From positions 1 through 64,000 of the forward strand of contig JAFQZK010000001.1 in NCBI GenBank assembly GCA_017405965.1: a stretch of DNA of 64,000 nt, given 5' to 3'. Shown here piece after piece: positions 20,045-52,785 of this stretch. The notes beneath the pieces are model-generated. The model did no database searches. It saw nothing but the letters and a program-made list of their open reading frames with translations, and had not been told where the DNA came from. Made by a program: the position numbers and the translations under genes. Position 1 is the stretch's first letter, and each line of letters starts with the position of its first letter. Source of the stretch: Muribaculaceae bacterium. Lineage in GTDB: Bacteria; Bacteroidota; Bacteroidia; Bacteroidales; Muribaculaceae.

Positions 20045-20060
20045 ATTAGATATTAGATAT
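20045..20060. repeat. 7-nt-period repeat (ATTAGAT x2)
   Basis: Two perfect ATTAGAT units plus a partial third, in the spacer between the deoD stop and the next ATG. Shortest member of the heptanucleotide family described in the findings. Confidence 0.5.
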
Positions 20061-20089
20061 AAAGATGAAACCTTGGACTGGAAACTGAA

Positions 20090-20800
20090 TCAGATGATAC
20101 CGAAAGCGACGTCCATCATCTTGGTGAAGCTGTTCTGGCGCTCCTCGGCTGTAGTCACCTCACCAGTTATCAGCGAGTCGCTGATGGTGCAGATGCACAA
20201 GGCGCGGGCACCGCTGCGGGCGGCGTTCATGTAGAGTGCGGGAGCCTCCATCTCAACGGCGAGCACGCCCATCTTCTGCCACTGGTCGGTGTCGGGGCTG
20301 TCATCATAGAAGGTGTCGGAAGAATACACGTTACCCACCTTGTAGTGGTAACCGAGCTCCTCGGCCTTCTCGACGGCTGAGCGCAACAGGTCGAAGTCGG
20401 CAATCGGGGCATAGATGCCGGGCAAGTGGAATTGCATGGCGTAGGCGCTGTTGGTGCAGGCACCTTGGGCCATTACCAGGTCGCCGATGTGCAGGTCGGG
20501 GTGCATAGAGCCTGCCGAACCCACACGGATGATGGTCTTCACATCATAGAAATTGAACAGCTCGTAACTGTAGATGCCGATTGAGGGAATGCCCATGCCG
20601 TGGCCCTGAACCGAAATGCGTTTGCCTTTGTAAGTGCCGGTATAGCCCAGCATGCCACGAACCTGGTTGTAGAGCGTGGGGTTCTCGAGATAACGCTCGG
20701 CCATCAACTTGGCGCGCAAGGGGTCGCCTGCCATAATCACTGTGGGTGCAATCTCGCCATATTTGGCGCCGATGTGCGGAGTAGGTGTTTTGTCTGCCAT
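20090..20800 (-). CDS. deoD: Purine-nucleoside phosphorylase, DeoD type
   Basis: 236 aa, the family's usual length. It splits purine (deoxy)ribonucleosides with phosphate into base and (deoxy)ribose-1-phosphate in salvage. Signatures: [24 protein letters not shown] (in part; phosphate-binding GDPLRA), [34 protein letters not shown], the nucleoside-site [13 protein letters not shown] and the catalytic Asp in [11 protein letters not shown]. Its promoter at 20833-20840 lies ~33 nt upstream. Confidence 0.97.
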
Positions 20801-20832
20801 ATACTTATAATATTATAAATGTAGTCTAACTG

Positions 20833-20840
20833 CAAAGGTA
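20833..20840 (-). promoter_or_regulatory. -7 box for deoD
   Basis: TACCTTTG on the minus strand, 32 nt before the deoD start. Confidence 0.7.
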
Positions 20841-20954
20841 CGGAGTTTTTCCCACATTTGACAAATATCGACCTATTATTTTATTACCAATGAACAAATA
20901 AAACCGCATTTGGAAATTATTTCGTGATATTTTGGCCTGTTATTGAATAATGCG

Positions 20955-20962
20955 TATTTTTG
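20955..20962 (+). promoter_or_regulatory. -7 box for the S41-like gene
   Basis: TATTTTTG 38 nt before the ATG at 21001. It lies inside the 5' extension of the longest open frame, which argues for the downstream ATG. Confidence 0.65.
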
Positions 20963-21000
20963 CAATACGAAATCAATGTCAATCAATTAAGAATTGTAAG

Positions 21001-22449
21001 ATGAAGAACGGGCCCGGGAAAAAGCGCTTCTCATTCAAGAAGAGAATACTTATTTTTATTGGTGTGCTGTTGGCTATGATCACAGTTATCCTGTTGATTA
21101 TGGCGTGGCCCATGATACATCCCAAAACATATTCTCCCGCCCAGGTTGCTGCCGATTTGGATTCGCTTGTCGTCTATATCGAGCGTGTTCATCCTGATCC
21201 ATATCGGCAGTTGAGCAAAGTGGAGTTCTACAAGGCTGTCGAGCAGGCCAAGCAGCGTTTGTCTGCAAAGGGGAAAGTGACTCAGATGGAGTTCTACTAC
21301 GAGGCCTCTCGTCTTGCTGCGATGTTCAAGGAGGGGCACCTGTCCGTCCGGTCGGATGTCTTTATTGAGCGGAATATGAAGCTGTTTCCATATTTCACGG
21401 CTTTCCGTCTCGAGCCTGGCACCCACCGCCTTTTCTTGAAGACTGATGTCGAAATTGCTGGACACGGGTTCAAAGCGGGTGATGAATTGCAAGAAATCAA
21501 CGGGAAACCGGTTCGCGAGATTGTTGAAGGGGCGCTCGAGGGCGTTTCGGGCGAGAGCGACGGATTCCGTTGCGCTTTGCTTGACGTTTTTTTTTACGTT
21601 CCCGATCCCTTGAACATTTGGGTGAGTCAAAACATGCCTGCCGATGTGTATCGGGTGAAGATGAGAAAGTCAAGCGGTGAACTGATGAGCCTTGATGTGG
21701 AATCAGTTGGCTTGTTGAAGTGGTTCGTAATGAATAAGGAACAGAATGTTGATGAGTCGTTGCAAGTCAAGGCGCCGTTTGAGAGCAAAATGCTCAATGA
21801 TTCCACGCTGTTGTTCAGCTTTAATGAATGTGTGACCGATGGTTTGAAGGAATTCTTGAGTGATATGTTCGCCAAGGCCAAAGCCGATGGCGTGCGCTAC
21901 CTCATCATTGATAACCGATTTAATACGGGTGGCACCTCCGAGGCCGGAGACGAGTTGTGCCGATACTTGACCGACAAGCCTTTCAGCTCTGTTGACAAGG
22001 TGATGATTCGGTTTTCTGAGCCGATCCGCCTTCTCCAGCGCGAATACTTGAATGGCGTTATTCCGCCACGCGACACCCTGGTGACACAGCTTGACGATCC
22101 TGCCTGCCGTCAACAGCCTTACGGCGATGACGTCCGTTTCGATGGTAAGGTCTTTCTGCTGAACAGTTACTTGACATTCTCGGCGGCTGCCGACTTCGCT
22201 TCACAATTCGCTTACTACAAGATGGGTACCATCGTTGGAGAGGAGACTGGCGGAATGACGATATCATCAGGCGACATCATAACCCTTTTACTCCCTAACA
22301 CAAGACTTGGCTTGTCTTTGCCGTTCAAGTTGTTCTACAATATCGGCGCCGACGAGAATGCTCCGGTTCAGGGCGTGAAGCCCGATGTTGAGGTTCCCTC
22401 TTCGGGTGCTCTCGACATGGCACTGGACATGATAGCCAAAGGGAAATGA
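21001..22449 (+). CDS. S41-like (tail-specific protease family) membrane-anchored protein
   Basis: 482 aa from the chosen ATG. The open frame extends to 20950, but the promoter lies inside that extension. After a basic stretch (KKRFSFKKR) comes one membrane anchor (ILIFIGVLLAMITVILLIMAW, in part), so the body is extracytoplasmic. The S41 features are an N-terminal helical domain with KEGHLSV (counterpart of the DGHxxV motif), PDZ-like loop GHGFKAGDELQEINGKPV, YLIIDNRFNTGGTS, and the nucleophile region NSYLTFSAAADFA. The Lys that follows in CtpA-type enzymes is replaced (VGEETGGMTISSGD), so it belongs to the other S41 branch or is not a classical CTP. Function unknown. Confidence 0.85.
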   Translation: MKNGPGKKRFSFKKRILIFIGVLLAMITVILLIMAWPMIHPKTYSPAQVAADLDSLVVYIERVHPDPYRQLSKVEFYKAVEQAKQRLSAKGKVTQMEFYYEASRLAAMFKEGHLSVRSDVFIERNMKLFPYFTAFRLEPGTHRLFLKTDVEIAGHGFKAGDELQEINGKPVREIVEGALEGVSGESDGFRCALLDVFFYVPDPLNIWVSQNMPADVYRVKMRKSSGELMSLDVESVGLLKWFVMNKEQNVDESLQVKAPFESKMLNDSTLLFSFNECVTDGLKEFLSDMFAKAKADGVRYLIIDNRFNTGGTSEAGDELCRYLTDKPFSSVDKVMIRFSEPIRLLQREYLNGVIPPRDTLVTQLDDPACRQQPYGDDVRFDGKVFLLNSYLTFSAAADFASQFAYYKMGTIVGEETGGMTISSGDIITLLLPNTRLGLSLPFKLFYNIGADENAPVQGVKPDVEVPSSGALDMALDMIAKGK

Positions 22450-22586
22450 GCCAATTTCGGATTTTTTATGGAAAAAGGAGCGGACTGTGGCTTTCTCCTT
22501 GGATTTTACTGTAGTTTACTCATTAGGTTTAACTACTTTTAACAAATCTGGCATGGCTTAAATCTCTCAATTTTGACAAAACAATG

Positions 22587-22594
22587 TACTTTTG
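22587..22594 (+). promoter_or_regulatory. -7 box for the tandem acyltransferase genes
   Basis: TACTTTTG about 120 nt before the first acyltransferase. The leader holds a small hairpin CTTGTT-GTACG-AACAAG (22650-22666) of unknown role. Confidence 0.6.
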
Positions 22595-22721
22595 CAAATA
22601 AAACCTCATTTTATAGTATAGCGTTTTTTCAGTGTCGTTGTGACTTGATCTTGTTGTACGAACAAGTGCTTGGCAAAAAAAGCGGTTAGCAATAAAGTGT
22701 TGATTAGTTGTAATGATCAAG

Positions 22722-23714
22722 ATGTCTAAAGAGTTATCTGCGATAATCAAAGGTATTGCCATATTGCTGATGTTGATTTATCATCTCAGCAATATACCAG
22801 GAATCCAAGGTTTAGACAATGTGTTTCACCGCACGTTGTCAACGGCCTCATATCCGGTATGCTACTTCTTGATTGTGAGTGGATACGGGCTGTATTATGT
22901 TTACAAGCAAGGACGTTTGTCGATGAAGTACCTTCTAAAGCGTTCCTGCAAATTGTATATCGCTTTTTGGATTGTCCTGCTGATTTTTGTCGTAGGCTTG
23001 GCTTCATTCCTTTATCCAGGCCGATTCTCTCTTCAATGGGATGACTTGATACAGAATTTCCTTGGGTGGCGCTGGGGATATTGCCATTTTACCTGGTTCC
23101 TGTTGCCCTACATATTGATGTCGTTTTCGGCTAAATGGGTTTTCCGGGCCATCGATTATCTGGGTAATGTGGTATCAGTTCTTTGCTCATTTTTCATATA
23201 TCTGGTGTGCGGTTTCTTGATCAGCCGCTACTTTGAGTCGTGGCTGCAATGGCACATGGCGGTTTATCATGTGGTGTTGTGGGCCCAGACCTTGTTCACC
23301 TTGACGATAGGTGCTGTGATGGCACGCTTGGTTTTGTCGGGCAAGAGCCTTGTCTGGGACCAATTGAATGGCAAGAATCTGCTGGTTCTCCTGTTGTTGC
23401 TGGTATCGTTTGCCATCCGTGGGCAAGTACACACATCGGTATTGAATCCTTTCCATGCCACTCTAGTCGTGTGGTTGGTTTTGCATTTGAGAATCAGTGG
23501 ATTGCCCAAAACGATTCTTACTGAACTTGGCGATAAGTCGATGTTGATGTGGTTTGCGCAAGGCTTCTTGGGAGTTGCCATGTTCTCAGAGTATATTACA
23601 CTACTGCGATGGCCGGTGCTGATTTGGATTACTTGGGTTGTTGTTTGTTATCTGGTCGCTTGTCTGCTCAAACCGCTGGCCGATGGCGTTGCAAAGGTAG
23701 TCAAGTTGTCCTGA
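22722..23714 (+). CDS. Acyltransferase family 3 integral membrane protein, copy 1
   Basis: 330 aa from the MSKELSAIIKG start. An ATG at 22713 would add three residues, but the downstream one aligns with the paralogue at 23758. About ten helices. The N-terminal His of acyltransferase-3 proteins is seen in MLIYHLSNIPGIQ, and RSCKLYIAFWIVLL fits the conserved Arg region. Such enzymes add acetyl or succinyl groups to surface sugars at the inner membrane; acceptor unknown. It is the first of two adjacent homologues. Confidence 0.87.
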   Translation: MSKELSAIIKGIAILLMLIYHLSNIPGIQGLDNVFHRTLSTASYPVCYFLIVSGYGLYYVYKQGRLSMKYLLKRSCKLYIAFWIVLLIFVVGLASFLYPGRFSLQWDDLIQNFLGWRWGYCHFTWFLLPYILMSFSAKWVFRAIDYLGNVVSVLCSFFIYLVCGFLISRYFESWLQWHMAVYHVVLWAQTLFTLTIGAVMARLVLSGKSLVWDQLNGKNLLVLLLLLVSFAIRGQVHTSVLNPFHATLVVWLVLHLRISGLPKTILTELGDKSMLMWFAQGFLGVAMFSEYITLLRWPVLIWITWVVVCYLVACLLKPLADGVAKVVKLS

Positions 23715-23757
23715 GTCAAATAAACGTTTAACAAATAAAGCTAGCGATAATCAGTAG

Positions 23758-24747
23758 ATGTCTAAAGAGCAATCAGCAATAATCAAGGGCTTCGCTATAT
23801 TGATGATGTTATTATATCATCTGTCTTGTATCCCCAAGATACAAGAGCTGGACTTATTCACTTCAACGTTGTCATCCATTTCTCACCCCATTTTGTATTT
23901 CTTGGTGGTGAGCGGTTATGGTCTTTACCTTGTTTATAAACAGGGGAGGATGACATGGAGCTACTTGTTGAAACGCTCGCTCAAATTATATTTGGCCTAC
24001 TGGGTCGTTCTGTTGATTTTTGTCTTTGGAATTGCCACTTGGATGTATCCCGACCGTTTTCACTATAGCGCGACCGGCGTGGTGCTCAATTTCCTGGGCT
24101 GGAGGTGGGATTACTGCAAATTCACTTGGTTCCTGCTGCCATATGTCTTGATGTGTCTGTCCTCTAAGTGGGTGTTTCGAATCATCGACCGGTTTGGGAT
24201 AGTCGTGTCGTTGATTGTTGCATTCCTGCTTTATATACTTGCCACATTCTGTATCGGCCGTTATTATCCCACGTGGTTGCGTTATCACTATGTGGCCTAT
24301 CATTTTGTCTTGTGGCTCCAGACCCTTTTGGGGTTGACGGTCGGTGCGTCGATGGCGCGCATGGTGACCGAGGGAAAGAGTATCGTTTGGGATAAGTTAA
24401 TGGGCAAGAACCTGCTGTTGCTGGCAGTGTTTGTCGTCTCGATTCTCATCAGGCGACTGTTGCCGTTCCCTGGCATACATCCGTTCCATGTGGTCCTGAT
24501 CATCTGGCTGATTTTGCATTTCGACTGGAATGGGCTTGTCAAGAAAATCTTTGTCGAACTTGGCGACAAGTCGATGATCATGTGGTTTGTCCAAGGTTTT
24601 CTGGCGGTTTATATGTTTGCCGAGTACATGGTGCAGCTGCGCTGGCCATTGCTTATCTGGATTGTATGGACCATCATCTGCTACCTCGTTGCTTGCTTGT
24701 TGAAGCCCGTCATTAATGGATTGGCGAGACTTTTAAGGCTGAGTTGA
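23758..24747 (+). CDS. Acyltransferase family 3 integral membrane protein, copy 2
   Basis: 329 aa. It is clearly homologous to the preceding protein along its whole length: MSKEQSAIIKGFAIL against MSKELSAIIKGIAIL, MLLYHLSCIPKIQ, LNFLGWRWDYCKFTWFLLPY against LGWRWGYCHFTWFLLPY. The pair is therefore a tandem duplication, separated by 43 nt and probably one transcript. It keeps the conserved His of the family. The acceptor sugar is unknown; no glycosyltransferases are adjacent. Confidence 0.87.
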   Translation: MSKEQSAIIKGFAILMMLLYHLSCIPKIQELDLFTSTLSSISHPILYFLVVSGYGLYLVYKQGRMTWSYLLKRSLKLYLAYWVVLLIFVFGIATWMYPDRFHYSATGVVLNFLGWRWDYCKFTWFLLPYVLMCLSSKWVFRIIDRFGIVVSLIVAFLLYILATFCIGRYYPTWLRYHYVAYHFVLWLQTLLGLTVGASMARMVTEGKSIVWDKLMGKNLLLLAVFVVSILIRRLLPFPGIHPFHVVLIIWLILHFDWNGLVKKIFVELGDKSMIMWFVQGFLAVYMFAEYMVQLRWPLLIWIVWTIICYLVACLLKPVINGLARLLRLS

Positions 24748-24770
24748 TGCGTTGTTCACAAAATAATGTG

Positions 24771-24778
24771 TACCTTTG
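24771..24778 (+). promoter_or_regulatory. -7 box for the YitT gene
   Basis: TACCTTTG 88 nt before the YitT start. Confidence 0.7.
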
Positions 24779-24865
24779 CGGCCAAAATTTGTGAAAGTCG
24801 AGTGCCATGAAGCATATTGCGATGGCTGAGACGCATTATATTTTTCATAATTCAAAGAATTAGAG

Positions 24866-25828: not shown

Positions 25829-25863
25829 TTGCAGCTCTTGATTACTTTTTGAATTCCATACTC

Positions 25864-28118: not shown

Positions 28119-28141
28119 CAGTTTTAAGTATGAATAATCCT

Positions 28142-28176
28142 CTAACCTGTAACCTTTAACCTTTAACCTTTAACCT
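28142..28176. repeat. 7-nt-period repeat (unit TTAACCT, five units)
   Basis: Units CTAACCT, GTAACCT and TTAACCT x3 lie between the mgtC stop (28180) and the antiporter start (28118) on the minus strand, 3 nt after the stop. Each unit contains TAA on the plus strand; the minus strand reads AGGTTAA. Confidence 0.9.
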
Positions 28177-28179
28177 GTA

Positions 28180-28896
28180 TCACATGTTTATCTCGTTGGT
28201 GATGGTGATTGACACGGCATTGCTTTTCTCCTTGATGGTGTTGAACATCGACGGCACGTTCACGCCACCCTTGCTGCGCACCATGAAGTTGACAATCGTC
28301 AACTCGTTGTCGTAGTCATACTTCATGAACTCGTCGCTGATGTGGATATCGTTGTCCTTGAGGATGTCCCTCACCGCCTGGATGTCATCAAGGATGCCGT
28401 GCACCTTCACACGGATGATTTTGGACTCCCACAGGAAATTGTGGCGCAACTCGATGCGCTCGATGTTCACCAGAATGAAAATGATGAGTAGGGTAGCGAC
28501 GATGCTCACAAGATACATCCCTGCACCCACCGATAGGCCGAGGCAAGCAGCCATCCAGATGCCGGCGGCTGTCGTCAAGCCACGCACCGAACCTTTCATC
28601 TGGATGATGGCTCCTGCACCCAGGAAACCCACGCCGCTCACCACTTGAGCGGCAATGCGGCCCGGGTCGCCGTTTTTCAGCCCCATGTATTCTTGAGGTA
28701 TGTAGATGGATATGAGCATAGCCAGCGTGGCGCCCATAGAGATGAGGGCGAAGGTGCGCATTCCGGCGATTTGCCCTTTGCGGCGACGCTCAATTCCGAT
28801 GGTGGCGCCCAGCACCATGCTCAGCACCAGTTTGACGATGGACCCCGTGAGATTCACTTCGGGGCTGATGATATCTTGATAAATGTTTTCCAGCAT
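28180..28896 (-). CDS. MgtC/SapB-family membrane protein
   Basis: 238 aa. The membrane part (residues ~15-140) shows the family's GATIGIERRRKGQIAGMRTFALISMGATL (in part) and GRIAAQVVSGVGFLGAGAIIQ blocks. The C-terminal soluble domain (IIRVKVHGILDDIQAVRDILKDNDIHISD, in part) resembles an ACT-like regulatory domain. MgtC relatives modulate magnesium homeostasis or ATP synthase in other bacteria; a role here is unproven. It is the first gene of a likely operon with the CPA2 antiporter. Its promoter (28924-28931) is divergent from the next gene. Confidence 0.95.
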   Translation of the reverse strand: MLENIYQDIISPEVNLTGSIVKLVLSMVLGATIGIERRRKGQIAGMRTFALISMGATLAMLISIYIPQEYMGLKNGDPGRIAAQVVSGVGFLGAGAIIQMKGSVRGLTTAAGIWMAACLGLSVGAGMYLVSIVATLLIIFILVNIERIELRHNFLWESKIIRVKVHGILDDIQAVRDILKDNDIHISDEFMKYDYDNELTIVNFMVRSKGGVNVPSMFNTIKEKSNAVSITITNEINM

Positions 28897-31100: not shown

Positions 31101-31681
31101 TGAAAAGAATTTTCAGACACAGCATGTTATTGGGCTTATTAGCTGCCCTCATGTCACTTGCTGCTTGCAACAACGATCAGAGTTATGCCGACCGCCTCAA
31201 CCTGGAGCGCAACGCGGTCAACGCCTATCTAGCCAATCACCGCGTGGTGATGACGATACCTGAAGACTCGGTCTTTGAGGTGGGAGAGAACGCGCCCTAC
31301 TATCGCGTGGATGTCGATGGCAATGTCTATATGCAGGTGATTAGTGCCGGCGACCGTAAGAACGACAAGGCCAAAAAAGGCGAACCCATCTATTTCCGCT
31401 ATACTCGCTATGACCTTGCGATCTGGTATGCCGACGGTGTATGGAGTCCGACCAGCGGTAACGAGAACACGATGGATGCCCCGTCGTGCTCGTTCAATTA
31501 TTCCGACTTCACGTTGCCCTCATCTTCCCAGTGGGGTTACGGTCTCCAGTATCCCTTGATGTTCCTGGGTGTGGAGTGCGAGGTGAACTTGATCATCAAG
31601 TCACAGTACGGCTTCACAAACGAGATCTCTTATGTAACGCCGTTTTTCTACCATGTGCGTTACTACCATAGCATGATCTAA
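31100..31681 (+). CDS. DUF4827-like lipoprotein
   Basis: 193 aa. Lipoprotein signal MKRIFRHSMLLGLLAALMSLAAC with Cys at ~23 after LAA. The mature part (SYADRLNLERNAVNAYLANH, VEVG-like ENAPYYRVD..., GEPIYFRYTRYDLAIW, YPLMFLGVECEVNLIIKSQYG) matches Bacteroidota lipoproteins of the DUF4827 group, believed FKBP-like in fold. It carries no evident catalytic residues. It overlaps the upstream gene by one base, and a short 7-nt repeat follows its stop before the phosphohexomutase gene. Confidence 0.82.
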   Translation: MKRIFRHSMLLGLLAALMSLAACNNDQSYADRLNLERNAVNAYLANHRVVMTIPEDSVFEVGENAPYYRVDVDGNVYMQVISAGDRKNDKAKKGEPIYFRYTRYDLAIWYADGVWSPTSGNENTMDAPSCSFNYSDFTLPSSSQWGYGLQYPLMFLGVECEVNLIIKSQYGFTNEISYVTPFFYHVRYYHSMI

Positions 31682-31683
31682 CG

Positions 31684-31699
31684 TCTAAAATCTAAAATC
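31684..31699. repeat. 7-nt-period repeat (TCTAAAA x2)
   Basis: Two TCTAAAA units and a partial third start 3 nt after the DUF4827 stop and end 3 nt before the next ATG. Confidence 0.55.
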
Positions 31700-33092: not shown

Positions 33093-33132
33093 TTCTGGTT
33101 CCTAAAGGATCAAAACCCTTTAGGAACCAGAA
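33093..33132 (+). terminator. Long hairpin after the phosphohexomutase gene
   Basis: TTCTGGTTCCTAAAGG pairs perfectly with its complement (33093-33108 with 33117-33132), 5 nt after the stop. No U-run follows; the 7-nt repeat begins at the next base. Confidence 0.75.
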
Positions 33133-33174
33133 GATTAAAGATTAGTGATTAGTGATTAGAGATTAGAGATTAGA
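33133..33174. repeat. 7-nt-period repeat, left arm (GATTAGN, six units)
   Basis: GATTAAA, GATTAGT x2 and GATTAGA x3 in unbroken register. Each of the five GATTAGN units carries TAG on the plus strand and CTAATC on the minus strand; the first (GATTAAA) carries TAA. Confidence 0.92.
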
Positions 33175-33184
33175 ACGCCCCAAT

Positions 33185-33247
33185 CTCTCACTCCTAACTC
33201 CTAATTCCTAACTCCTAATTCCTCACTCCTAATTCCTAATTCCTAAT
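33185..33247. repeat. 7-nt-period repeat, right arm (TCCTAAY, nine units)
   Basis: Nine units of the type TCCTAAC/TCCTAAT (two read CTCAC variants) in unbroken register end 1 nt before the ATG at 33249. The unit is the loose inverse of the left arm, so a stem-loop is possible. The same TCCTAAY unit recurs at 43410. Confidence 0.92.
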
Positions 33248-33248
33248 T

Positions 33249-33926
33249 ATGCCCCTGTCTGCCGCCATCAAGTTAAAGAAATTCATGGTCAATCCTTTCG
33301 AGGAATGCACCCATATCCTCTCCGATGAAACTGGCGAGGCCGTGATTATCGATTGCGGTGTATTCCATAAGGGTGAGCGCCAGCGTCTGCTCGACTACTT
33401 GAAAGAAGAGCAGTTGCGACCGGTGCGCCTGCTGTTGACTCATGCTCATCACGACCATCTGTACGGCAACGACTTGATTCAGGAGCATTACGGCTTGCTG
33501 CCCGAGGTCCATAAGGCCGACCTCCCCTTGATGGGTGGCCACTTGATGAACCGCATCAACGAGTGCTATTACGGGAAATACCCTTATACCATTCCCATGC
33601 CTGAACACTTCCTTAGTGACGGCGACATCATCCCGTTCGGCAACCACGAGTTGCGTGTGATCCACACGCCGGGCCATTCACCGGGCTCGGTCATCTTTTA
33701 TTGTGAGCAGGAGGGCATCGCTTTTACTGGCGACACCTTGTTCCGCCTGGATATCGGGGCGACCAACCTGCCGTTCGGCTCGTTCGAGGACATCATGAAC
33801 AGCTTGGATTACATTATCCAACTGTTGCCCGACGACACGGTAATTTACCCGGGTCATGGCGCGAAATCCACGATCGGTTACGAGAAAGAGAAAAATCCCC
33901 ACCTCAACGGCGGCGTCTTCTATTGA
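33249..33926 (+). CDS. MBL-fold metallo-hydrolase (glyoxalase II-like)
   Basis: 225 aa. The metal ligands of the metallo-beta-lactamase fold are present: LLTHAHHDHLYG, HTPGHSPGSVIFYCE, FTGDTLFRLDIG and the C-terminal YPGHGAKSTIG. Small hydrolases of this class split thioesters such as S-lactoylglutathione or act on related substrates; the true substrate is unknown. The ATG at 33249 is the only start that keeps the first strand (AIKLKKFMVNPFEE). It directly follows the repeat array and has no visible Shine-Dalgarno sequence. It overlaps the convergent phosphoesterase gene by 7 bp. A paralogue lies at 47445. Confidence 0.93.
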   Translation: MPLSAAIKLKKFMVNPFEECTHILSDETGEAVIIDCGVFHKGERQRLLDYLKEEQLRPVRLLLTHAHHDHLYGNDLIQEHYGLLPEVHKADLPLMGGHLMNRINECYYGKYPYTIPMPEHFLSDGDIIPFGNHELRVIHTPGHSPGSVIFYCEQEGIAFTGDTLFRLDIGATNLPFGSFEDIMNSLDYIIQLLPDDTVIYPGHGAKSTIGYEKEKNPHLNGGVFY

Positions 33927-43409: not shown

Positions 43410-43451
43410 TCCCAATTCCCAATTCCTAATTCCTAACTCCTAACTCCTAAA
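43410..43451. repeat. 7-nt-period repeat (TCCYAAY, six units)
   Basis: Units TCCCAAT x2, TCCTAAT, TCCTAAC x2 and TCCTAAA in unbroken register. The array starts 5 nt after the fucosidase stop (43457, minus strand) and ends 7 nt before the DUF1963 ATG (43402). Same unit as 33185-33247. Confidence 0.92.
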
Positions 43452-43456
43452 AAAAG

Positions 43457-45900: not shown

Positions 45901-45945
45901 TACTACTTTAGCGAGATAAACAAGAAGCCATAAGGAGAATTTGTC

Positions 45946-46791: not shown

Positions 46792-46796
46792 TCACG

Positions 46797-47438
46797 ATGG
46801 AACATATCCTGAAATACTTCCCTGAACTCTCCGAGAAACAACGCTTGCAGATGGAGCAGCTCGAAACGCTCTATCCCGAGTGGAATGCCAAGATCAACGT
46901 CATCTCCCGCAAGGACATCGACAACTTGGAGATCAACCACATTCTGCATTCTTTGGGCCTGGTCAAGTTTGTGCAATTCACGCCCGGCACTCGGGTGATG
47001 GACTTGGGGACGGGTGGGGGATTTCCCGCTATTCCGCTGGCCATCTATTACCCTGAAGTGACTTTTCATCTCGTTGACCGCATCGGCAAGAAACTGCGTG
47101 TAGCCAGCGACATCGCCGAGCGCATCGGCTTGACCAACGTCACCTTCCAGCATGGCGACGTCAAGGAGGTGAAGGGCAAGTTTGACTTCGTCGTGAGCCG
47201 TGCTGTGATGGACTTAGGTGACATGGTGCCCCTGGTCAAGCGATTCATCGACAGCGAGGACCGCAATGCCGTCCCCAATGGCCTGCTCTGCCTCAAGGGC
47301 GGCGACCTCACTGCCGAGGTGCAGAAATTCAAGAACCAAGTCCTCATCGACGATCTCTCCCATTACTTCAAGGAAGACTTCTTCAAAACCAAGAAAATCC
47401 TCTATCTCCCCCTTGAACCTCTAACCTCTAACCTTTAG
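46797..47438 (+). CDS. rsmG: 16S rRNA (guanine(527)-N7)-methyltransferase RsmG
   Basis: 213 aa. SAM-dependent methylation of G527 in 16S rRNA. Motifs: NVISRKDI, the SAM-binding VMDLGTGGGFPAIPLAI, VDRIGKKLRVASDIAERIGL, and VVSRAVMDL. The final residues LEPLTSNL are encoded by a 7-nt repeat (TGAACCT, CTAACCT, CTAACCT) that runs into the 3' end and supplies the TAG. This tail is longer than the usual end near YLPL. The next gene starts 6 nt later. Pairing with an MBL hydrolase fits co-transcription. Confidence 0.96.
   Translation: MEHILKYFPELSEKQRLQMEQLETLYPEWNAKINVISRKDIDNLEINHILHSLGLVKFVQFTPGTRVMDLGTGGGFPAIPLAIYYPEVTFHLVDRIGKKLRVASDIAERIGLTNVTFQHGDVKEVKGKFDFVVSRAVMDLGDMVPLVKRFIDSEDRNAVPNGLLCLKGGDLTAEVQKFKNQVLIDDLSHYFKEDFFKTKKILYLPLEPLTSNL
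47414..47434. repeat. 7-nt-period repeat inside the rsmG 3' end (three units)
   Basis: TGAACCT and CTAACCT x2, followed by TTAG. The array overlaps the last codons of rsmG, and its first in-frame stop ends the gene. Confidence 0.85.
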
Positions 47439-47444
47439 CTAGAT

Positions 47445-48083
47445 ATGAATGCGACAATGATGACCGTCAATCCGTTTGGCGAAAATATGTATATCCTGTG
47501 GGACGAGGCTTCGCACGATGCCGTGGTCGTTGACCCTGGCATGATGCGTGATGGCGAACGCGACATGGTGACCAAGTTCATTGAGGACAACAAGTTGAAT
47601 GTGAAGCATGTTTTGCTCACCCATCTTCATGTGGACCACATCACCAGCGCTCGATGGCTGGCCGACAAGACAGGTGCCGACGTGTGCGGCAGTGCTCTGG
47701 ATAACCAATTGGGACAAGAACTGCCCGAGCAAGTGGCACATTTCCGCATCAATGTCGAAGTCGAGCCCTTGACCGTTGACCGAAACTTAGCTGATGGTGA
47801 TACCATTCCGTTGGGTGACGAGACCATCCAGGTGCTGCATGTCCCCGGCCACAGCCCTGGCGGCCTGGCCTTCTATCTGCCGAACAGTGGCTTGCTCATC
47901 AGCGGCGACACCATCTTCAACGGCAGTGTGGGACGCACCGACCTGTGGGGTGGCGACATGGCACAACTCATCAACAGCATCCGCGAGAAAATCCTCCCGC
48001 TCCCCGACGAGACCGTCATCGCCTCGGGCCACGGCCCCACAACCACCGTCGCCGACGAGAAGCGTTTCAACCCCTTTCTTTAG
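47445..48083 (+). CDS. MBL-fold metallo-hydrolase (glyoxalase II-like)
   Basis: 212 aa. Metal ligands are intact: HVLLTHLHVDHITSARW (HxHxDH), HVPGHSPGGLAFYLP, ISGDTIFNGSVGRTDL and SGHGPTTT. It resembles small glyoxalase II-type thioesterases; the substrate is unknown. It is 6 nt after rsmG and shares the fold of the protein at 33249. A long 7-nt repeat starts in its stop codon. Confidence 0.94.
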   Translation: MNATMMTVNPFGENMYILWDEASHDAVVVDPGMMRDGERDMVTKFIEDNKLNVKHVLLTHLHVDHITSARWLADKTGADVCGSALDNQLGQELPEQVAHFRINVEVEPLTVDRNLADGDTIPLGDETIQVLHVPGHSPGGLAFYLPNSGLLISGDTIFNGSVGRTDLWGGDMAQLINSIREKILPLPDETVIASGHGPTTTVADEKRFNPFL

Positions 48084-48110
48084 TGAACAGTTAACAGAGA
48101 ACAGTTAACA
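48083..48110. repeat. 7-nt-period repeat, left arm (GTKAACA-type, four units)
   Basis: GTGAACA, GTTAACA, GAGAACA and GTTAACA. It starts at the last base of the MBL stop codon. Its reverse complement matches the unit of the right arm. Confidence 0.9.
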
Positions 48111-48156
48111 GTTGGCATTCGCCGACTATTGTTGACGAGCCAATTCCGTAGAAATA

Positions 48157-48200
48157 AGAAATGAGAGATAGACGAAACATCGCCTGTCTCTCATATTCTT
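48157..48200. terminator. Central hairpin between convergent genes
   Basis: AAGAAATGAGAGATAG pairs imperfectly with CTGTCTCTCATATTCTT around a short loop. It is flanked on both sides by the inverted 7-nt repeat arms, so the whole 48083-48294 segment may fold as one long structure. It lies between the 3' ends of convergent genes. Confidence 0.6.
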
Positions 48201-48294
48201 AACTGTTAACTCTTATCTGTTCACTGTTCTCTGTTCACTGTTCACTGTTCACTGTTCTCTGTTAACTGTTAACTGTTAACTGTTAACTGATCAC
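48197..48294. repeat. 7-nt-period repeat, right arm (TGTTMAC, fourteen units)
   Basis: Fourteen units in unbroken register: TCTTAAC, TGTTAAC, TCTTATC, then alternating TGTTCAC, TGTTCTC and TGTTAAC units, ending TGATCAC. The last unit contains the stop codon (TCA at 48291-48293 on the plus strand) of the minus-strand beta-barrel gene. Many TTAA cores are palindromic, so stops appear on both strands. Confidence 0.95.
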
Positions 48295-49148
48295 AGGGCT
48301 ATGGCGCCGCCAAGCATCCAGGTGTTCTTGATTTCGGGGCCGAAGCCATTCTTGAACATGTTGCCGGGGGTGAAGCGGCAGTAGATGGCCAAACCATCAA
48401 ACGACAAGGCTCCAATTACATCAAAGGTGATTTTGTTCTGCTTGATGCCGTGATAAGAAACGTCATAGTTGGTTTTGTTGATCTTGTAATGGGTGTTGCA
48501 CTTGGCATACACGTTCCAGTTCATGCTCGCGCCAAGAACAAAGTGGAACTCCTTGCCAAAGTCCTGTTGGAACAGCAGCGGGAACTGGATGGCCCTGACA
48601 CTGAGGACCGAAGAGCGGTCTTTCACATCATTGGGATAGGTGTCTATGCCCACGATGTTGGTCGCTTCGTCCATGACAAAACAGTTGGGACGCTTGAGCG
48701 AGAAACGCTTGTTGTCATAGCCTACACCCAGCGAGAAATGCTGGCCGTGCAGGGTGTGGTAATTGATGCTGGCAATGTTGAGAATACCCCAGTTGAAACT
48801 GTTGTTCACGAGGTCATATGATGTCTTGAGTCCGCCACCAAAGTAGATTCCCTTGCTTTCCATGCTCCAGTGGTAGTCATTCTTTTTGTTTTTCTTGAAT
48901 GGGAAATTAAGATCCCAATCAAGGTCTTGACTGGTGTGGATGCTGTCGTTGGCAGCGTGCTCCATCTGATAGGTGTAGTTGTACTCATCGTTATCTTTCA
49001 TGCCCTTAACCTTCACAACAGTGCCGGTGGGCGTTTCGGTGATAATGACTTGCTGAGGTTGTTCAATAACGGTTACCGTGTCGGGTGTTTGTGCCGAAAG
49101 CGTTGCGGATGCCATGATGGCAGCGATGATGAATGAAAACTTTTTCAT
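48291..49148 (-). CDS. Outer membrane beta-barrel protein, paralogue 1
   Basis: 285 aa. Signal peptide MKKFSFIIAAIMASATLSA. A low-complexity linker (TVTVIEQPQQVIITETPTG) and charged region are followed by a ~190-residue beta-rich domain (GIYFGGGLKTSYDLVNNSFNWGILNIASINYHTLHGQHFSLGVGY, in part) ending in a C-terminal strand with hydrophobic residues. No named family recognised. It is a paralogue of the 50750-51526 product (shared LHGQxxSLGxG, SxKRPxxxVxD, KNTWxxG) and is probably in the sigma-factor regulon. Its stop lies in a 7-nt repeat unit. Confidence 0.8.
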   Translation of the reverse strand: MKKFSFIIAAIMASATLSAQTPDTVTVIEQPQQVIITETPTGTVVKVKGMKDNDEYNYTYQMEHAANDSIHTSQDLDWDLNFPFKKNKKNDYHWSMESKGIYFGGGLKTSYDLVNNSFNWGILNIASINYHTLHGQHFSLGVGYDNKRFSLKRPNCFVMDEATNIVGIDTYPNDVKDRSSVLSVRAIQFPLLFQQDFGKEFHFVLGASMNWNVYAKCNTHYKINKTNYDVSYHGIKQNKITFDVIGALSFDGLAIYCRFTPGNMFKNGFGPEIKNTWMLGGAIAL

Positions 49149-49173
49149 AATGTGTTCATTTATTTGATTGTTA

Positions 49174-49620
49174 TTATTTTCGGATTAATTTCTTGATTTT
49201 CTCGGCACTGGCATCACCTTCCATATAGATGAGCGTAACGACGTTTTTGGGCGATTTGCGTGCCAGATTCTGGTTGAGGAAGAAGATATAACGGTTACTG
49301 CGCTTGTACTTGGGCAATGTGTAGAAGCCGTAGTATAGTTGCCCGTTGCGGTACTCCACTTCCTTGTCAATGGCTTTGGCTCCGTCTTTCACCACCAGAT
49401 TCTCGATGATTTCGGCCTGCGCCTTCTCGGTCACGCTGATGCTGTGATAGATGGTGAGCCCGATTTCGTGGGCTTGACTGCCGGTGACGATGATCTCGGT
49501 TGCATCGGCAGCTTTCTTGTACCGCCCGTCAAACAGGCGGTTGATGTTCAAGCCGGTTTGTGCCATGGCTGCCATGGTCGTCAGCATGCAGGCTAGGATG
49601 ATGATTGTAGTCCGTTTCAT
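49174..49620 (-). CDS. Small secreted DUF6108-like protein
   Basis: 148 aa from the ATG at 49620. The longer frame would start at a TTG inside the upstream gene, and the ATG gives a clean signal peptide, MKRTTIIILACMLTTMAAMA. The mature part starts QTGLNINRLFDGRYKKAADATEIIVTG and ends in a lysine-rich tail. It resembles a small Bacteroidota family that I recall as DUF6108, but only tentatively. Function unknown. It lies between the anti-sigma-like gene and a beta-barrel gene on the same strand. Confidence 0.65.
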   Translation of the reverse strand: MKRTTIIILACMLTTMAAMAQTGLNINRLFDGRYKKAADATEIIVTGSQAHEIGLTIYHSISVTEKAQAEIIENLVVKDGAKAIDKEVEYRNGQLYYGFYTLPKYKRSNRYIFFLNQNLARKSPKNVVTLIYMEGDASAEKIKKLIRK

Positions 49621-49633
49621 ATTGTCGCGTTGT

Positions 49634-50095
49634 TTATTCGTTATCAAGTTCAAGGGCCGCGCCCAGACTGGAGAGCTGATCGGTCATAGCATCGGCAGCA
49701 TTATCCATCATGCTCAAGTCATTAACTATCAGTGCCATGACCTTATCATCGTCCTGCACTATCTGCCCGTTGACATAGGCAATGCACACGCCAGCCGATT
49801 GTTGCTGGTGCCATAAGGCATATCCACCAGCAGCAAGCACGATGGCTATCGAAGCCGCAATGCCGATGAACTTGTTGCGGTTGTTCTTTCTGGCAACACG
49901 CTGGCCCTCATGGCTGTGGGCGGCAAAATAGCCCATCGTGAAGCGTGCCTCGTCAATCACCTCGCTGCTCCAGGGGCAGTCGGCGAGGGTTTCACGCAGC
50001 ATCTGCTCCTCTAGGACGCTGGTATCACCGTCGAAGTAGCGCTCGATAAGCTCTTCCAGCTCGGCTTGGGTGGTTATGTGATGATTCTTGTTCAT
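49634..50095 (-). CDS. Putative anti-sigma factor (single-pass membrane protein)
   Basis: 153 aa. N-terminal ~75 residues are cytoplasmic and acidic (ELEELIERYFDGDTSVLEEQ, in the style of Bacteroidota anti-sigma N-terminal regions, but without the HxxxCxxC zinc motif). One membrane helix lies at ~76-95 (FIGIAASIAIVLAAGGYALW). The outer part (~58 residues) is short and acidic. Its ATG overlaps the sigma factor stop by 4 bp (ATGA), which is the classical sigma/anti-sigma coupling. The role is inferred from position and topology. Confidence 0.75.
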   Translation of the reverse strand: MNKNHHITTQAELEELIERYFDGDTSVLEEQMLRETLADCPWSSEVIDEARFTMGYFAAHSHEGQRVARKNNRNKFIGIAASIAIVLAAGGYALWHQQQSAGVCIAYVNGQIVQDDDKVMALIVNDLSMMDNAADAMTDQLSSLGAALELDNE

Positions 50096-50601
50096 AATGT
50101 CTTCTCCATGTTTCTTGATTGATAAATCTCACGCACGCGTCGGCGTGCTCGGCTCAGTTCCACGCGCACGTTGGCGGCGGTCATGTTCATGCGTCGGGCG
50201 ATGTCCTCAAACTCCAGCCCCTGCATTTCCCTCAGGTCGATAATCAACCGCTGGTTGTCAGACAAGTAGTTGTCGATGATGTGGCGCACTTGCAGGTAGG
50301 CAAGGCTGCGGTCGTTGTCGTTCACGTCCTCGATAGCTTCGGCAACTTGGTCAAGTGAAACGTCACTGTTGTGACTGTTCTTGCGAGCCATGTCGATGCT
50401 GGTGGTGCGAACGGTCATCATTCCTGCCCCTCGGGCATGGCTGGAGTTCTCATAGCGCCCTCGTTGCTGCCACAGTTTCACAAAGGCGTCCTGTACCGCG
50501 TCGGCAGCATCATCGCGGTTGCCCGTGATGCGTTCGGCCAGCGAGAGCATCTGCTCCCTCAAAGCGGTGAATGCATTGGTGATGCGGTCAGGTTGCTTCA
50601 T
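50092..50601 (-). CDS. ECF-type RNA polymerase sigma factor
   Basis: 169 aa with sigma-70 region 2 (residues ~10-75: DAADAVQDAFVKLWQQRGRYEN, the -10 contact region) and region 4 (~115-160: DNYLSDNQRLIIDLREMQGLEFEDIARRMNMTAANVRVELSRARRR, in part; HTH EDIARRMNMTAANVRVELSRA). It should direct transcription of a small regulon, probably including its own operon. The gene overlaps the putative anti-sigma gene by 4 bp. Confidence 0.95.
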   Translation of the reverse strand: MKQPDRITNAFTALREQMLSLAERITGNRDDAADAVQDAFVKLWQQRGRYENSSHARGAGMMTVRTTSIDMARKNSHNSDVSLDQVAEAIEDVNDNDRSLAYLQVRHIIDNYLSDNQRLIIDLREMQGLEFEDIARRMNMTAANVRVELSRARRRVREIYQSRNMEKTL

Positions 50602-50660
50602 TGTCGTTTGCTGTTTCTATTCAATAAACGCAGAAAGACGCTGTTTGTAACAAAGAAATG

Positions 50661-50697
50661 AAAAAAAAGACGAAAATTCCAAGAATGATGGAATTTC
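50661..50697 (-). terminator. Intrinsic terminator of the beta-barrel paralogue 2 gene
   Basis: AAATTCC pairs with GGAATTT (50674-50680 with 50690-50696), followed on the minus strand by a run of eight U residues. Confidence 0.85.
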
Positions 50698-50716
50698 CGC
50701 CTTTCTGTTCCGTGAT

Positions 50717-50743
50717 ATCCGTTTAATCCGTAATATCCGTTTC
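50717..50743. repeat. 9-nt-period repeat (ATCCGTTTA, three units)
   Basis: ATCCGTTTA, ATCCGTAAT and ATCCGTTTC. It starts 6 nt after the beta-barrel paralogue 2 stop on the minus strand. It behaves like the 7-nt family by position but has a different period. Confidence 0.7.
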
Positions 50744-50749
50744 TCTCGA

Positions 50750-51526
50750 TTAGAGACCCAGGATCAGACCCATGGTCCAAGTGTTCTTGATTTCGGGACC
50801 ATTGTTCTCCTTGAAGAACTTGCCGGGGGTGTAGCGGCAGTAGATACCAAACTCATTCCAGGTGAGGCTACCGATGACATCGAAGTTCACCTTGTTCTGC
50901 TTGAGGCCCTTGTAATGGGTGTCGTGATCGATCTTGTTCATTTCGTAGTGGTTGTCCACGCGGGCATACATGTTCCAGTTGAGGATGCCGCCAACGCTGA
51001 TGTCACACTTACCTGCGATGTGCTGACGGAAAATCAAGGGGAACTGAATAGCCCACAAGTTCAGGTTGGACGAGCGGTCCTTGATGACGTCCACGTTTTC
51101 CGAGGGGTAAACCGACGGGATAACAACGCCATGGTCATCACGCACGAGCATACCCGGACGCTTCATGCTGTAGGAACGATGGTGGATACCTGCACCCAGC
51201 GAGATGGTCTGTCCGTGCAGCGAGCTGTACTTTATACCTACTATGTTGAGGAAACCAACCTCAAAGGAGTTGTTGATGGCATCCCAGTTGTGCTTGATGC
51301 CCATACCCAAGTAGAAACCGTCGTCGAAGACAGCCCAGTGCTTGTTGATCTTGGTATCAGTTTTTTCAAGCAACGATGATGAATTGTAGTCATCCTCGGC
51401 AGCGGCTACCGCAGCGGCAGGGGGCTCGGCGTTTGTGGCTTCATTATTGACAGCAGCGTCATTAGTGGCTGCACTCATCTGTGCCATGGAAATCATGGCT
51501 GCAAAAAGTATTGCAAATTTCTTCAT
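50750..51526 (-). CDS. Outer membrane beta-barrel protein, paralogue 2
   Basis: 258 aa. Signal peptide MKKFAILFAAMISMAQMSA, then a low-complexity Ala-rich segment (NNEATNAEPPAAAVAAAEDD, in part) and a beta-rich domain (GFYLGMGIKHNWDAINNSFEVGFLNIVGIKYSSLHGQTISLGAG, in part) ending KNTWTMGLILGL. Paralogue of the 48291-49148 product. It has its own promoter (51580-51611), so it is separate from the sigma-factor unit, but may be in the regulon. No named family is recognised. Confidence 0.8.
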   Translation of the reverse strand: MKKFAILFAAMISMAQMSAATNDAAVNNEATNAEPPAAAVAAAEDDYNSSSLLEKTDTKINKHWAVFDDGFYLGMGIKHNWDAINNSFEVGFLNIVGIKYSSLHGQTISLGAGIHHRSYSMKRPGMLVRDDHGVVIPSVYPSENVDVIKDRSSNLNLWAIQFPLIFRQHIAGKCDISVGGILNWNMYARVDNHYEMNKIDHDTHYKGLKQNKVNFDVIGSLTWNEFGIYCRYTPGKFFKENNGPEIKNTWTMGLILGL

Positions 51527-51579
51527 TTTCAGTTATTTATTCTTTTTCTTTATGAAAAAATGTTGTTAAAAGTTGGCGG

Positions 51580-51611
51580 CAAAGGTACTATTATTTGCTG
51601 AATTGTGCAAA
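51580..51611 (-). promoter_or_regulatory. Promoter of the beta-barrel paralogue 2 gene
   Basis: On the minus strand TTTG (51608-51611) is followed after 20 nt by the -7 box TACCTTTG (51580-51587). This is the textbook Bacteroidota arrangement. Confidence 0.85.
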
Positions 51612-51620
51612 TTTTTGGTT

Positions 51621-52751
51621 TCATTCGGGATTTATCACCTTGGCAAAACGCACTTGACTCTTGTATTCGGGGAAATTGAGGGTGAGGATAACGCCGTTCT
51701 CGACGGTCGCATAGGCATCGTTGTCAATCGGCTCCATCGTGGCATCAATCCAGCTCAGGTTGTAGTTGCCCGTGAACAAGGTGCGTGAGATGTGCCCTTT
51801 CTTCATGCCGGGTTGCCACATGGATTTCTTGACCTGAGCCCCGTCAATGTAAATAATGTCATAGCCGTCATCGGCCCTGACAACGGCAAGCGTGTAGCGG
51901 CCGCCCAACCGCAGCCACTGCTCTTCCATGTCGCGGTCGAGATAGGTCCAATAGCCCTCTACGGGATCAGCGCTCTGCTCGAAATAGGCATCCAGCGTCT
52001 CGGGGGTCCATGCTGTAGTCGTGGCGACGACTTGTTGATCGTTCTCGATGGTGAGCACGGCTCTTTCGATGGCCACACGGGCGCCAGGGCCAGTCAGATA
52101 GCCCACACGAACCGTGCCGGTTGGTCTGGCGATAGGGACTTCAATCACTCGATTGAGTTCGTCTTTACCGACCGAAACGATGACATTGTGCTCGTCAACG
52201 TCAACGCAGAGGTTGTTCAGGTCATCCTCGAGCGAAACACCTTTTTTCACGACGGTCGATGCCGCTTCGGTCTTCTTGCCATCCTTGACTTGTACAAGAG
52301 TGACTAGCATGGTGCGCTCGTCGGTGATGTCATCATAGAGGGTACTGTTTTCGCAACTCAGTACCACAGCACAGTAGTTGCCCTGGTCATCATCGTTGAA
52401 GATGAGTCCCCATTGTGAGTTAGTGATCGTGCTCTTGTCGCCGGTCATGGGGTTCTTGATTGACTTGGTCTTGCCCTGCTTGTTGTTCAGGTTGGCCAGG
52501 CGCAGTTGGTAGCGGTAGGCCGTGCTGTTGATGCCCATGGTGTCGATGGTGACGGCGGTTGCCATGGTCGCGTTTTCCTCGATGAGGTATTCGCCCTCGA
52601 TGGTCTTGTAGCGCCCGGCCATCCTCATGCCGGGATGCGGGTACAGACCGCCAAAGTTGTTTCTCACCGAGTTATAATACGACCTGCCATCGGCCATGAA
52701 TGAACTCACAGCCACCAGTCCAGCCACTAAAGCCACCAATATCCTTCTCAT
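51621..52751 (-). CDS. Secreted hypothetical protein
   Basis: 376 aa from the ATG at 52751, which gives a signal peptide (MRRILVALVAGLVAVSSFMADG). A longer frame to 52781 would add ten residues and overlaps the 7-nt repeat, so I prefer the downstream start. The body is beta-rich (RYQLRLANLNNKQG, YWTYLDRDMEEQWLRLGGRYTLAVV, DGVILTLNFPEYKSQVRF-like end) and recalls laminin-G or concanavalin-type folds, but no family is recognised. No active-site motif is visible. It follows rlmH on the same strand. Confidence 0.75.
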   Translation of the reverse strand: MRRILVALVAGLVAVSSFMADGRSYYNSVRNNFGGLYPHPGMRMAGRYKTIEGEYLIEENATMATAVTIDTMGINSTAYRYQLRLANLNNKQGKTKSIKNPMTGDKSTITNSQWGLIFNDDDQGNYCAVVLSCENSTLYDDITDERTMLVTLVQVKDGKKTEAASTVVKKGVSLEDDLNNLCVDVDEHNVIVSVGKDELNRVIEVPIARPTGTVRVGYLTGPGARVAIERAVLTIENDQQVVATTTAWTPETLDAYFEQSADPVEGYWTYLDRDMEEQWLRLGGRYTLAVVRADDGYDIIYIDGAQVKKSMWQPGMKKGHISRTLFTGNYNLSWIDATMEPIDNDAYATVENGVILTLNFPEYKSQVRFAKVINPE

Positions 52752-52764
52752 TTTATATAACAAA

Positions 52765-52785
52765 TGACTAATGTCTAACATCTAC
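52765..52785. repeat. 7-nt-period repeat over the rlmH stop (three units)
   Basis: TGACTAA, TGTCTAA and CATCTAC. The minus strand reads TAG at 7-nt spacing, and one of these TAGs is the rlmH stop (52782-52784). Confidence 0.75.

Follow-up and report, generated by a model that had tools for sequence, protein, structure and literature searches.

The spacers between genes in the DNA analysed here hold a lineage-limited class of polar heptamer arrays. We refer to the whole stretch, 64,000 nucleotides (nt) from positions 1 to 64,000 of contig JAFQZK010000001.1 of a Muribaculaceae bacterium (assembly GCA_017405965.1), as "the window". In the sampled genomes of its genus the arrays have a strict 7-nt period, are intergenic and anchored at gene edges, and are built on a constrained core, mostly CTAA/TTAG, with the TTAGNNN strand running 5' to 3' away from the gene. 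The place of an array is conserved between species above expectation, and its sequence is often replaced. An earlier note on this DNA, which had drawn attention to the 7-nt repeats, overlooked their most telling feature, namely the direction in which the arrays run. Our tentative interpretation is that 7-nt growth with a direction continually rewrites the arrays, that purifying selection filters them, and that stop codons are a by-product; we give it a probability of roughly 40%.

The window (52% GC) is contig C40 of a Bacteroidales genome of 3.6 Mb in 40 contigs, designated G000, whose GlmM is about 96% identical to that of the loci RUG412 and RUG14590, which are among the closest named relatives and come from metagenome-assembled genomes labelled Prevotellaceae or Bacteroidales. 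The comparison used one genome per species. Genus samples comprised 684 kb of G000 (window included), 400 kb of G032, 300 kb of G034, 95 kb of G027 and 180 kb of G012; a further 240 kb came from G352, which belongs to the same class and another order. Stretches of G034 (the first 20 kb of contigs 1-12, further sequence of C6, and contig C37), contig C1 of G032, C10 of G012 and C6 of G009 were chosen without regard to arrays, as was a further set of 355 kb, made up of eight sets of stretches around glmM, although the glmM spacers in it had already been examined. Contigs C21, C33 and C10 of G000 were chosen since matches had shown their large size. The stretches of G352 and G027 were chosen around matches to the CTAA pattern defined below, and array density in these two genomes is therefore biased. 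Genes were called with a simple open reading frame caller, so start positions are approximate. Arrays were identified with a lag-7 score of +1 or -1 per position and a threshold of 14.

Several lines of evidence indicate that the 7-nt period is strict. Period-7 sequence is present at every site that the earlier note had named, and its claim of one shared geometry with divergent units is borne out. In the window's 50 spacers, six segments score 14 or more at period 7 and none does so at any other period from 4 to 13, the array at 47411 being left out of the six because it overlaps a gene end. In 200 dinucleotide shuffles of the same spacers the mean number of such period-7 segments was 0.01 and the maximum was 1. 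Exact lag runs of at least 9 in the window number 12 at period 7, none at periods 2, 4, 5, 8, 9, 10, 11 and 13, two each at periods 3, 6 and 12, and seven at the harmonic period 14. The window is array-rich, yet it is not unique in its genome. The samples of G000, G032, G034 and G027 contain 37, 37, 36 and 20 intergenic arrays, respectively, for a total of 130, while those in coding sequence number 1, 0, 1 and 0. Setting aside period 9 (10 in G000, 4 in G032) and the harmonic 14, no other period from 4 to 16 yields more than three intergenic arrays in a genome. Four identical 4-mers chained with a fixed 7-nt spacing occur 85, 83, 123 and 38 times in the four array-bearing genomes, with CTAA/TTAG the leading 4-mer in each, and not at all in the congener G012, whose 180 kb is also free of period-7 arrays. 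The eight glmM-centred sets contain 37 arrays at period 7 and at most six at any other period from 4 to 13. The excess of period 7 over other periods, which that note had proposed as a test, is therefore found both in the window and in the array-bearing samples of the genus.

The arrays lie close to genes. In G000, G032, G034 and G027, 93 of 131 arrays are within 12 nt of the nearest gene edge, which is a stop in 51 cases and a start in 42. Of the 121 arrays located in spacers of at least 100 nt, half have an end no more than 10 nt from a gene, where random placement would give 16%. The proposal that the repeats mark the 3' ends of genes was correct as to their closeness to gene ends, but the association is not with 3' ends only, for starts are hugged as well (within the window, at 33187-33248, which reaches the ATG at 33249, at 31677-31699 and at 43410-43450). 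Across seven samples, the array-free G012 included, arrays were found in 118 of 844 co-directional spacers, 20 of 201 convergent spacers and 11 of 197 divergent spacers.

To describe polarity, each array in the same four genomes was assigned to its nearest gene edge and read outward, and TTAG/TCAG cores were counted against CTAA/CTGA cores. Of the arrays no more than 30 nt from an edge, 83 have a clear core; the outward strand carries TTAG/TCAG in 79 of them and CTAA/CTGA in four, and two of these four exceptions are long merged arrays that hold both types. The two sides of the gene are mirror images, with ratios of 35:3 at starts and 44:1 at stops. This count leaves out 31 of the 131 arrays that have no clear core and 17 that lie beyond 30 nt, for which the outward strand is TTAG-type in 10 and not in 7; one further array is geneless on one side. 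Outward polarity was 18 versus 2 in G009, at any distance, and 23 versus 3 in the glmM-centred sets. Base skew, which can be scored without a core, gave the same direction: in 160 arrays from six genomes the outward strand is G-richer in 129, C-richer in 25 and tied in six. Where adjacent arrays share a spacer they converge, a G-rich array being followed by a C-rich one in 33 of 48 pairs, with the reverse order in one and other arrangements in 14. Base composition was rejected as the source of polarity, because spacers that lack arrays have CTAA and TTAG without bias after stops (84:76, pooled); before starts the bias is modest (123:76). We call an array type R if TTAG is on the plus strand and type F if CTAA is. 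Where an R-type array lies 12 nt or less from a stop, that stop is TAG in 19 of 38 cases, a codon that accounts for 177 of 1157 stops overall. Among 62 oriented stop-side arrays, 14 have the gene's own stop codon inside their first core.

The ten arrays of the window all obey the outward rule by core or by skew in a hand check, that at 43410-43450 by a 1-nt margin in the choice of nearest edge. For each we give the strand on which TTAG is read (or which is G-richer), directed away from the nearest gene edge. Past the glmM stop lies a perfect 16-bp hairpin (33093-33132, plus strand), terminator-like as read from the sequence and itself no heptamer array; the R-type array GATTAGT/GATTAGA (33131-33174, plus strand, score 31) begins 43 nt past that stop. 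Its partner of opposite polarity, the F-type array TCCTAAT/TCCTAAC (33187-33248, minus strand, score 39), abuts the ATG (33249) of an MBL-fold-like gene at 33249-33926. In a second, convergent pair, the left arm, AGTTAACAG/AGTGAACAG (48082-48113, plus strand, score 15), begins at the stop of the gene 47445-48083 and is adjoined by a GGCATTCGCC centre (48114-48123, no strand), similar to centres found between arms in G032, G034 and G009. The right arm, TTAACTG/TTCACTG/TTCTCTG (48199-48294, minus strand, score 65, 13 copies by Tandem Repeats Finder), ends at the stop of the minus-strand gene 48291-49148. An array that reads CTAACCT/TTAACCT on the plus strand (28139-28179, minus strand, score 28) lies immediately beyond the stop of the minus-strand MgtC-like gene 28180-28896. 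Another, TCCTAAT/TCCTAAC (43410-43450, minus strand, score 30), fills the spacer from a minus-strand stop (43457) to the next minus-strand start (43402), and AACCTCT, or CTAACCT (47411-47437, minus strand, score 14), overlaps the end of rsmG (46797-47438) and stops 7 nt short of the ATG at 47445. Three arrays are weak when taken alone. TATTAGA (20044-20060, plus strand, 2.4 copies, score 10) points away from the start of the minus-strand FabK-like gene 19046-20032, its nearest gene edge; an array with plus-strand units TCTAACG, TCTAAAA and TCTAAAA (31677-31699, minus strand, score 12) overlaps the end of the bamK-like gene (stop 31681) and occupies most of the 20-nt gap before the glmM ATG (31702); and the degenerate ACTAATG TCTAACA TCTA (52757-52784, minus strand, score 11) adjoins the stop of the minus-strand gene rlmH, 52782-53255. 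Two further lag-7 segments, at 10199-10218 and 48150-48169, score 9 each. A search of the window against Rfam at the gathering threshold returned two tRNAs only and no match at an array. A 21-nt minisatellite, AAGAAAACATGGGAAGAAGAG, is present in 3.8 copies inside an open reading frame at 1607-1685.

Units within an array are inexact, and usually consist of a YTAA core and three freer bases. When the core was labelled on odd units and variation was measured on even units (55 arrays, 142 comparisons), the mismatch between successive units was.13,.09,.07 and.13 at the four core positions and.37,.27 and.20 at the other three. Neighbouring CTAA units differ at none or one of the three free bases in 266 of 312 pairs (85%), compared with 38% for random draws from the pool of the same genome. 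Neighbouring units are far more alike than random, which argues that local duplication is at work and agrees in part with the earlier suggestion of local slippage; plain slippage, however, would not spare four of seven positions. The same similarity of adjacent units led us to reject the shuffling of whole units from a genome-wide pool. The idea of gene cassettes, in which the arrays flanking one gene would match, was also rejected, since the mean similarity of 10 such pairs was.106, against.158 for other pairs.

The place of an array tends to be kept, and its sequence is often replaced. Both orthologues bear arrays in 34 of 406 conserved spacers compared between pairs of species, where 16.6 would be expected, and in 19 of these 34 spacers the similarity of the units is 0.15 or less. 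For example, among relatives in which both bamK and glmM turned up, the spacer between them contains CTAACAA/CTAAAAA, CTAAACT/CTAAACC, GCTAATT/GCTAACA, an R-centre-F arrangement with TTAGGCN arms, or no array. By eye, the array-bearing versions of this spacer are not systematically longer.

To follow the arrays through the genus and phylum we counted occurrences of four CTAA cores spaced at 7 nt (the "CTAA pattern"); each start was counted, so long arrays count repeatedly. Matches exceeded those to a reversed control in G000 (163 vs 15), G034 (412 vs 1) and G009 (388 vs 42), and were absent from seven of 36 congeners (G003, G004, G005, G012, G014, G028 and G030). On a glmM tree of 30 genus genomes, the rich state (at least 40 matches) changes at least six times. 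One clade of 15 contains 11 of the 14 rich genomes; its other four members are poor by CTAA count, perhaps having other cores, and some of them are incomplete. Across the phylum, 104 of 296 genomes have at least one match, mostly few, and in a number of phylum genomes the reversed control is as common as the CTAA pattern or commoner, so that these matches need not mean a preference for CTAA.

Other intergenic repeats were noticed in the course of this survey. A second intergenic family in G000, with period 9 and a TCTAGA core, is sometimes found beside a heptamer array (e.g. contig C21, 58426-58516). One convergent spacer of the same genome (L175; contig C10, 206482-206736) carries four copies of a higher-order repeat of about 76 nt with AGTTTAG heptamers. 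In G027, gene-edge spacers at L195:4107-4384 and L194:17489-17595 hold period-7 arrays with a CTYG core (TCTTGCA/TCTCGCA) that are stop-free by eye.

The interpretation that we tentatively favour has three parts. Arrays would grow, and be rewritten, through local 7-nt duplication or slippage. Growth would be directional, with new units added toward the 3' end of the TTAG strand. Purifying selection would eliminate arrays that run into coding sequence, and the survivors would therefore be those that begin at a gene edge and point away from it. The stop codons of the CTAA core would then be a tolerated, perhaps helpful, by-product rather than a purpose.

A number of observations weigh against directional growth. 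Survivorship alone leaves the exact start of arrays at the gene edge unexplained, and some arrays fill their spacer and reach the opposite gene (43410, 47411). Directional growth predicts a more uniform distal end, but distal units are not fresher than proximal ones (lag-7 mismatch.185 and.184, respectively). The constrained core argues for selection or for a sequence-specific process, which plain slippage lacks. No enzyme was found among the candidates considered, for array counts do not evidently go with matches to RVT_1, Y1_Tnp or IMS (by eye, no statistic). Base skew is weakest at the starts of G000 (9:5) and the stops of G027 (2:2). In G352, the minority of arrays with a clear core (CTAA/CTGA or TTAG/TCAG, any distance) divides 11 to 8, with no clear polarity, so the core rule of the genus is not evident in that genome. 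Finally, the 406 species-pair comparisons are non-independent, and many of them reuse the glmM spacer.

The main rival of directional growth is a role at the level of RNA, which we consider possible but doubtful. According to this explanation, a protein would recognise CUAANNN leaders just before starts and UUAGNNN trailers just past stops, or these would serve as unstructured leaders for translation in Bacteroidota, which make little use of Shine-Dalgarno sites. Of 131 arrays, 42 have a start codon as nearest edge, no more than 12 nt away. The constraint on the core, the retention of array positions across species above expectation, the rarity of arrays in divergent spacers (11 of 197), and the folding of two single arrays, which revealed no structure beyond that of shuffles (z +0.9 and +1.6), are all consistent with it. 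It is less easily reconciled with the 51 of 131 arrays that have a stop within 12 nt as their nearest edge, some of them between convergent genes, which obey the mirror rule nonetheless. Several unrelated unit families occur in each genome, and both the absence of arrays from 180 kb of G012 and the lack of any CTAA match in seven of 36 congeners also count against an RNA element.

It appears unlikely that the arrays are explained by the pairing of R and F arms into an intercistronic or terminating hairpin, with single arrays as remnants, although the relative from another order offers evidence for it. The 240 kb of G352 contain 52 period-7 arrays, with at most three at any other period. Its units, including CGTGAGA, GGATGAC, GGATGTT, GTGAATA and AGCTNTT, are mostly on the left in spacers and their reverse complements mostly on the right, and within 30 nt of an edge the outward strand is G-rich in 29 arrays, C-rich in eight and tied in one. 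Arms that share a G352 spacer are complementary (0.55 vs 0.13, 18 pairs, p 4e-10), and one entire spacer, L196:3955-4350, is a giant nested palindrome of heptamer outer arms around a long inner palindrome, with a predicted folding energy of -265 kcal/mol (z -25.65). Five pairs in G000 also have complementary arms (.44 vs.08, p.019); RNA from two segments of the window folds more stably than expected (48080-48294, z -11.6; 33125-33251, z -2.2); and array pairs converge at a ratio of 33:1. Most array-bearing spacers of the genus, however, hold a single array (121 spacers in five genomes, with 30 adjacent pairs), and the arms of 19 pooled pairs resemble each other only slightly more than other pairs do (.233 vs.158, p.12), with no significant complementarity in G032, G034, G009 or G027. 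Because complementarity is significant only in G352 and the five G000 pairs, and because the two single arrays are unstructured, we rejected a hairpin as the common purpose of the arrays.

The earlier note had raised the possibility of a universal translation-stop spacer, in which the core is kept since a period of 7 places stops in all frames and so blocks read-through. Sense stops do occur in all three frames in 130 of 151 arrays from five genus genomes, and the excess of TAG ahead of R-type arrays (19 of 38, against 177 of 1157 overall) and the inclusion of the gene's own stop in the first core (14 of 62) can be read in the same way. Three-frame stops are, however, not found in essentially every array, since G352 has them in only 25 of 48, and in 5 of 18 at starts. 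Among 79 CTAA-majority arrays, 33 of 49 single-base changes in the core keep a sense stop, compared with about 30 expected, which is no excess in a small sample, where the expectation was calculated by hand from the available transition and transversion types and units within an array are non-independent. The mirror polarity at starts and stops (35:3 and 44:1) is also left unexplained, since either core, CTAA or TTAG, supplies stops on each strand and a stop function needs no polarity. Published GGGAATC arrays have the same geometry (PMC4692102), and that unit, read in tandem, is stop-free on either strand. We therefore regard a universal stop spacer as very unlikely.

Slightly more improbable still is a mobile element, that is, a transposase or reverse transcriptase that seeds or moves arrays in the manner of REP/RAYT, MITE-like elements or group II reverse transcriptases. 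Presence is labile among congeners, with at least six changes on the 30-genome glmM tree, and in some species inverted pairs share a GGCATNCGC centre: intergenic copies resembling GGCATNCGC lie within 40 nt of an array in 14 of 15 cases in G034, 2 of 2 in G009, 6 of 24 in G000 and 5 of 13 in G032. This motif was not found in the sampled intergenic DNA of G012, G027 or G352, two of which, G027 and G352, bear arrays. RVT_1, surveyed in 22 congeners besides G000, is absent from the array-rich genomes G007, G009, G018 and G021 and present in G003, G005 and G012, which have no CTAA match. The survey of Y1_Tnp and IMS covered 40 congeners; IMS is present in 36 of 41 genomes and Y1_Tnp in 38 of 41, the latter with no evident relation to arrays by eye (5, 6 and 8 matches in the CTAA-free G004, G014 and G030; 2 each in the array-rich G035 and G036). 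REP/BIME elements are extragenic palindromic pairs, mostly not located between divergent genes. The arrays described here differ from them in having no fixed palindrome of 20-40 bp, in having arms of 7-nt tandem units, and in their lack of an evident relation to Y1 transposases. Repeats that form G-quadruplexes, as in Xanthomonas and Nostoc, have the same geometry, but in their canonical form they are refuted by the sequences, since the G3 pattern matches none of 151 genus arrays and one of 48 in G352, and we give this explanation almost no credence.

By their geometry the arrays are of a known kind, but neither the G-tracts nor the single fixed unit by which the two published cases were defined is present in them. 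The question of whether they are an already described element therefore has a divided answer: heptamers of the same geometry have been described for other units and other taxa, and among the literature matches listed nothing concerned CTAA/TTAG heptamers of Bacteroidota except the TAACTGA repeats of MacGregor. Rehm et al. (2015; PMC4692102) describe GGGAATC and GGGGA(C/T)T heptamers in Xanthomonas and Nostoc, mostly less than 50 bp from open reading frames; the G strand is the non-coding one upstream of a frame and the coding one downstream. Two Xanthomonas genomes have 70 and 75 pairs that converge, and repeats are few where neighbouring frames diverge; no role in gene regulation was identifiable, and the emphasis is on quadruplexes. 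The likeness to our arrays comprises the period of 7, the intergenic and frame-hugging position, the outward G strand, the convergent pairs (in Xanthomonas), the scarcity between divergent frames, and the difference in length and sequence between close species; G352 shares this layout by skew only. Our arrays differ in having no G-tracts, several unit families per genome and AT-rich cores (CTAA, TTAG, CTGA), and in occurring in Bacteroidota. The Rehm repeats prefer four units; here, at a threshold of 14 that disfavours short arrays, four, five and six units are equally common (30, 32 and 30 of 151 arrays).

MacGregor (2015; PMC4679880) describes TAACTGA heptamers that in a Beggiatoaceae genome mostly lie immediately upstream of starts and that also occur in Cyanobacteria and five Bacteroidetes. 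They yield stops in three frames in the forward direction, and a role at the RNA level involving S1, Csp or Csr was proposed. They resemble our arrays in period, in a CTGA core (with TAA) that faces the gene, in forward placement on the start side (35:3 here), and in a scattered distribution that includes Bacteroidetes. That system has one dominant unit, single-base variants of which are rare as repeats, whereas here the free bases vary widely and stop-side arrays are equally common. Tandem TAACTGA pairs were absent from all seven of our samples. Heptanucleotides are also over-represented among long simple sequence repeats according to Mrazek et al. (2007), as cited in PMC4679880 and PMC4692102, where slippage related to polymerase contacts is mentioned as an idea for the number 7. 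The over-representation of 7-nt units is a point of likeness; the core constraint, the gene-edge polarity and the replacement of arrays in orthologous spacers do not appear in those citations.

The G-quadruplex repeats, the TAACTGA sites and the present arrays have in common a 7-nt period, anchoring at gene edges and an outward strand that bears G, which for TAACTGA is implied by the published orientation. The three sets have no one sequence in common, so a general explanation cannot lie in G-tracts, in stop codons or in a single binding site. The outward heptamer layout, since it is seen also in unrelated bacteria with other units, may be a general mode of writing intergenic DNA. A bolder version, which we think quite improbable, is that one DNA-writing process is common to Bacteroidota, Xanthomonas, Nostoc and Beggiatoaceae: 7-nt units would be laid down at ends or nicks in intergenic DNA, the G-bearing 3' strand would be extended away from coding DNA in a telomere-like geometry, and the 4-nt core would be the unit of re-annealing, so that gene edges would bear mirror-image arrays free in sequence and fixed in direction. 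With this shared geometry, the old question of why heptamers are favoured as long bacterial repeats becomes a testable one, namely what gives 7-nt arrays a direction of growth relative to genes. The genus to which the window belongs is a good test bed because its members span the range from 0 to 412 matches to the CTAA pattern.

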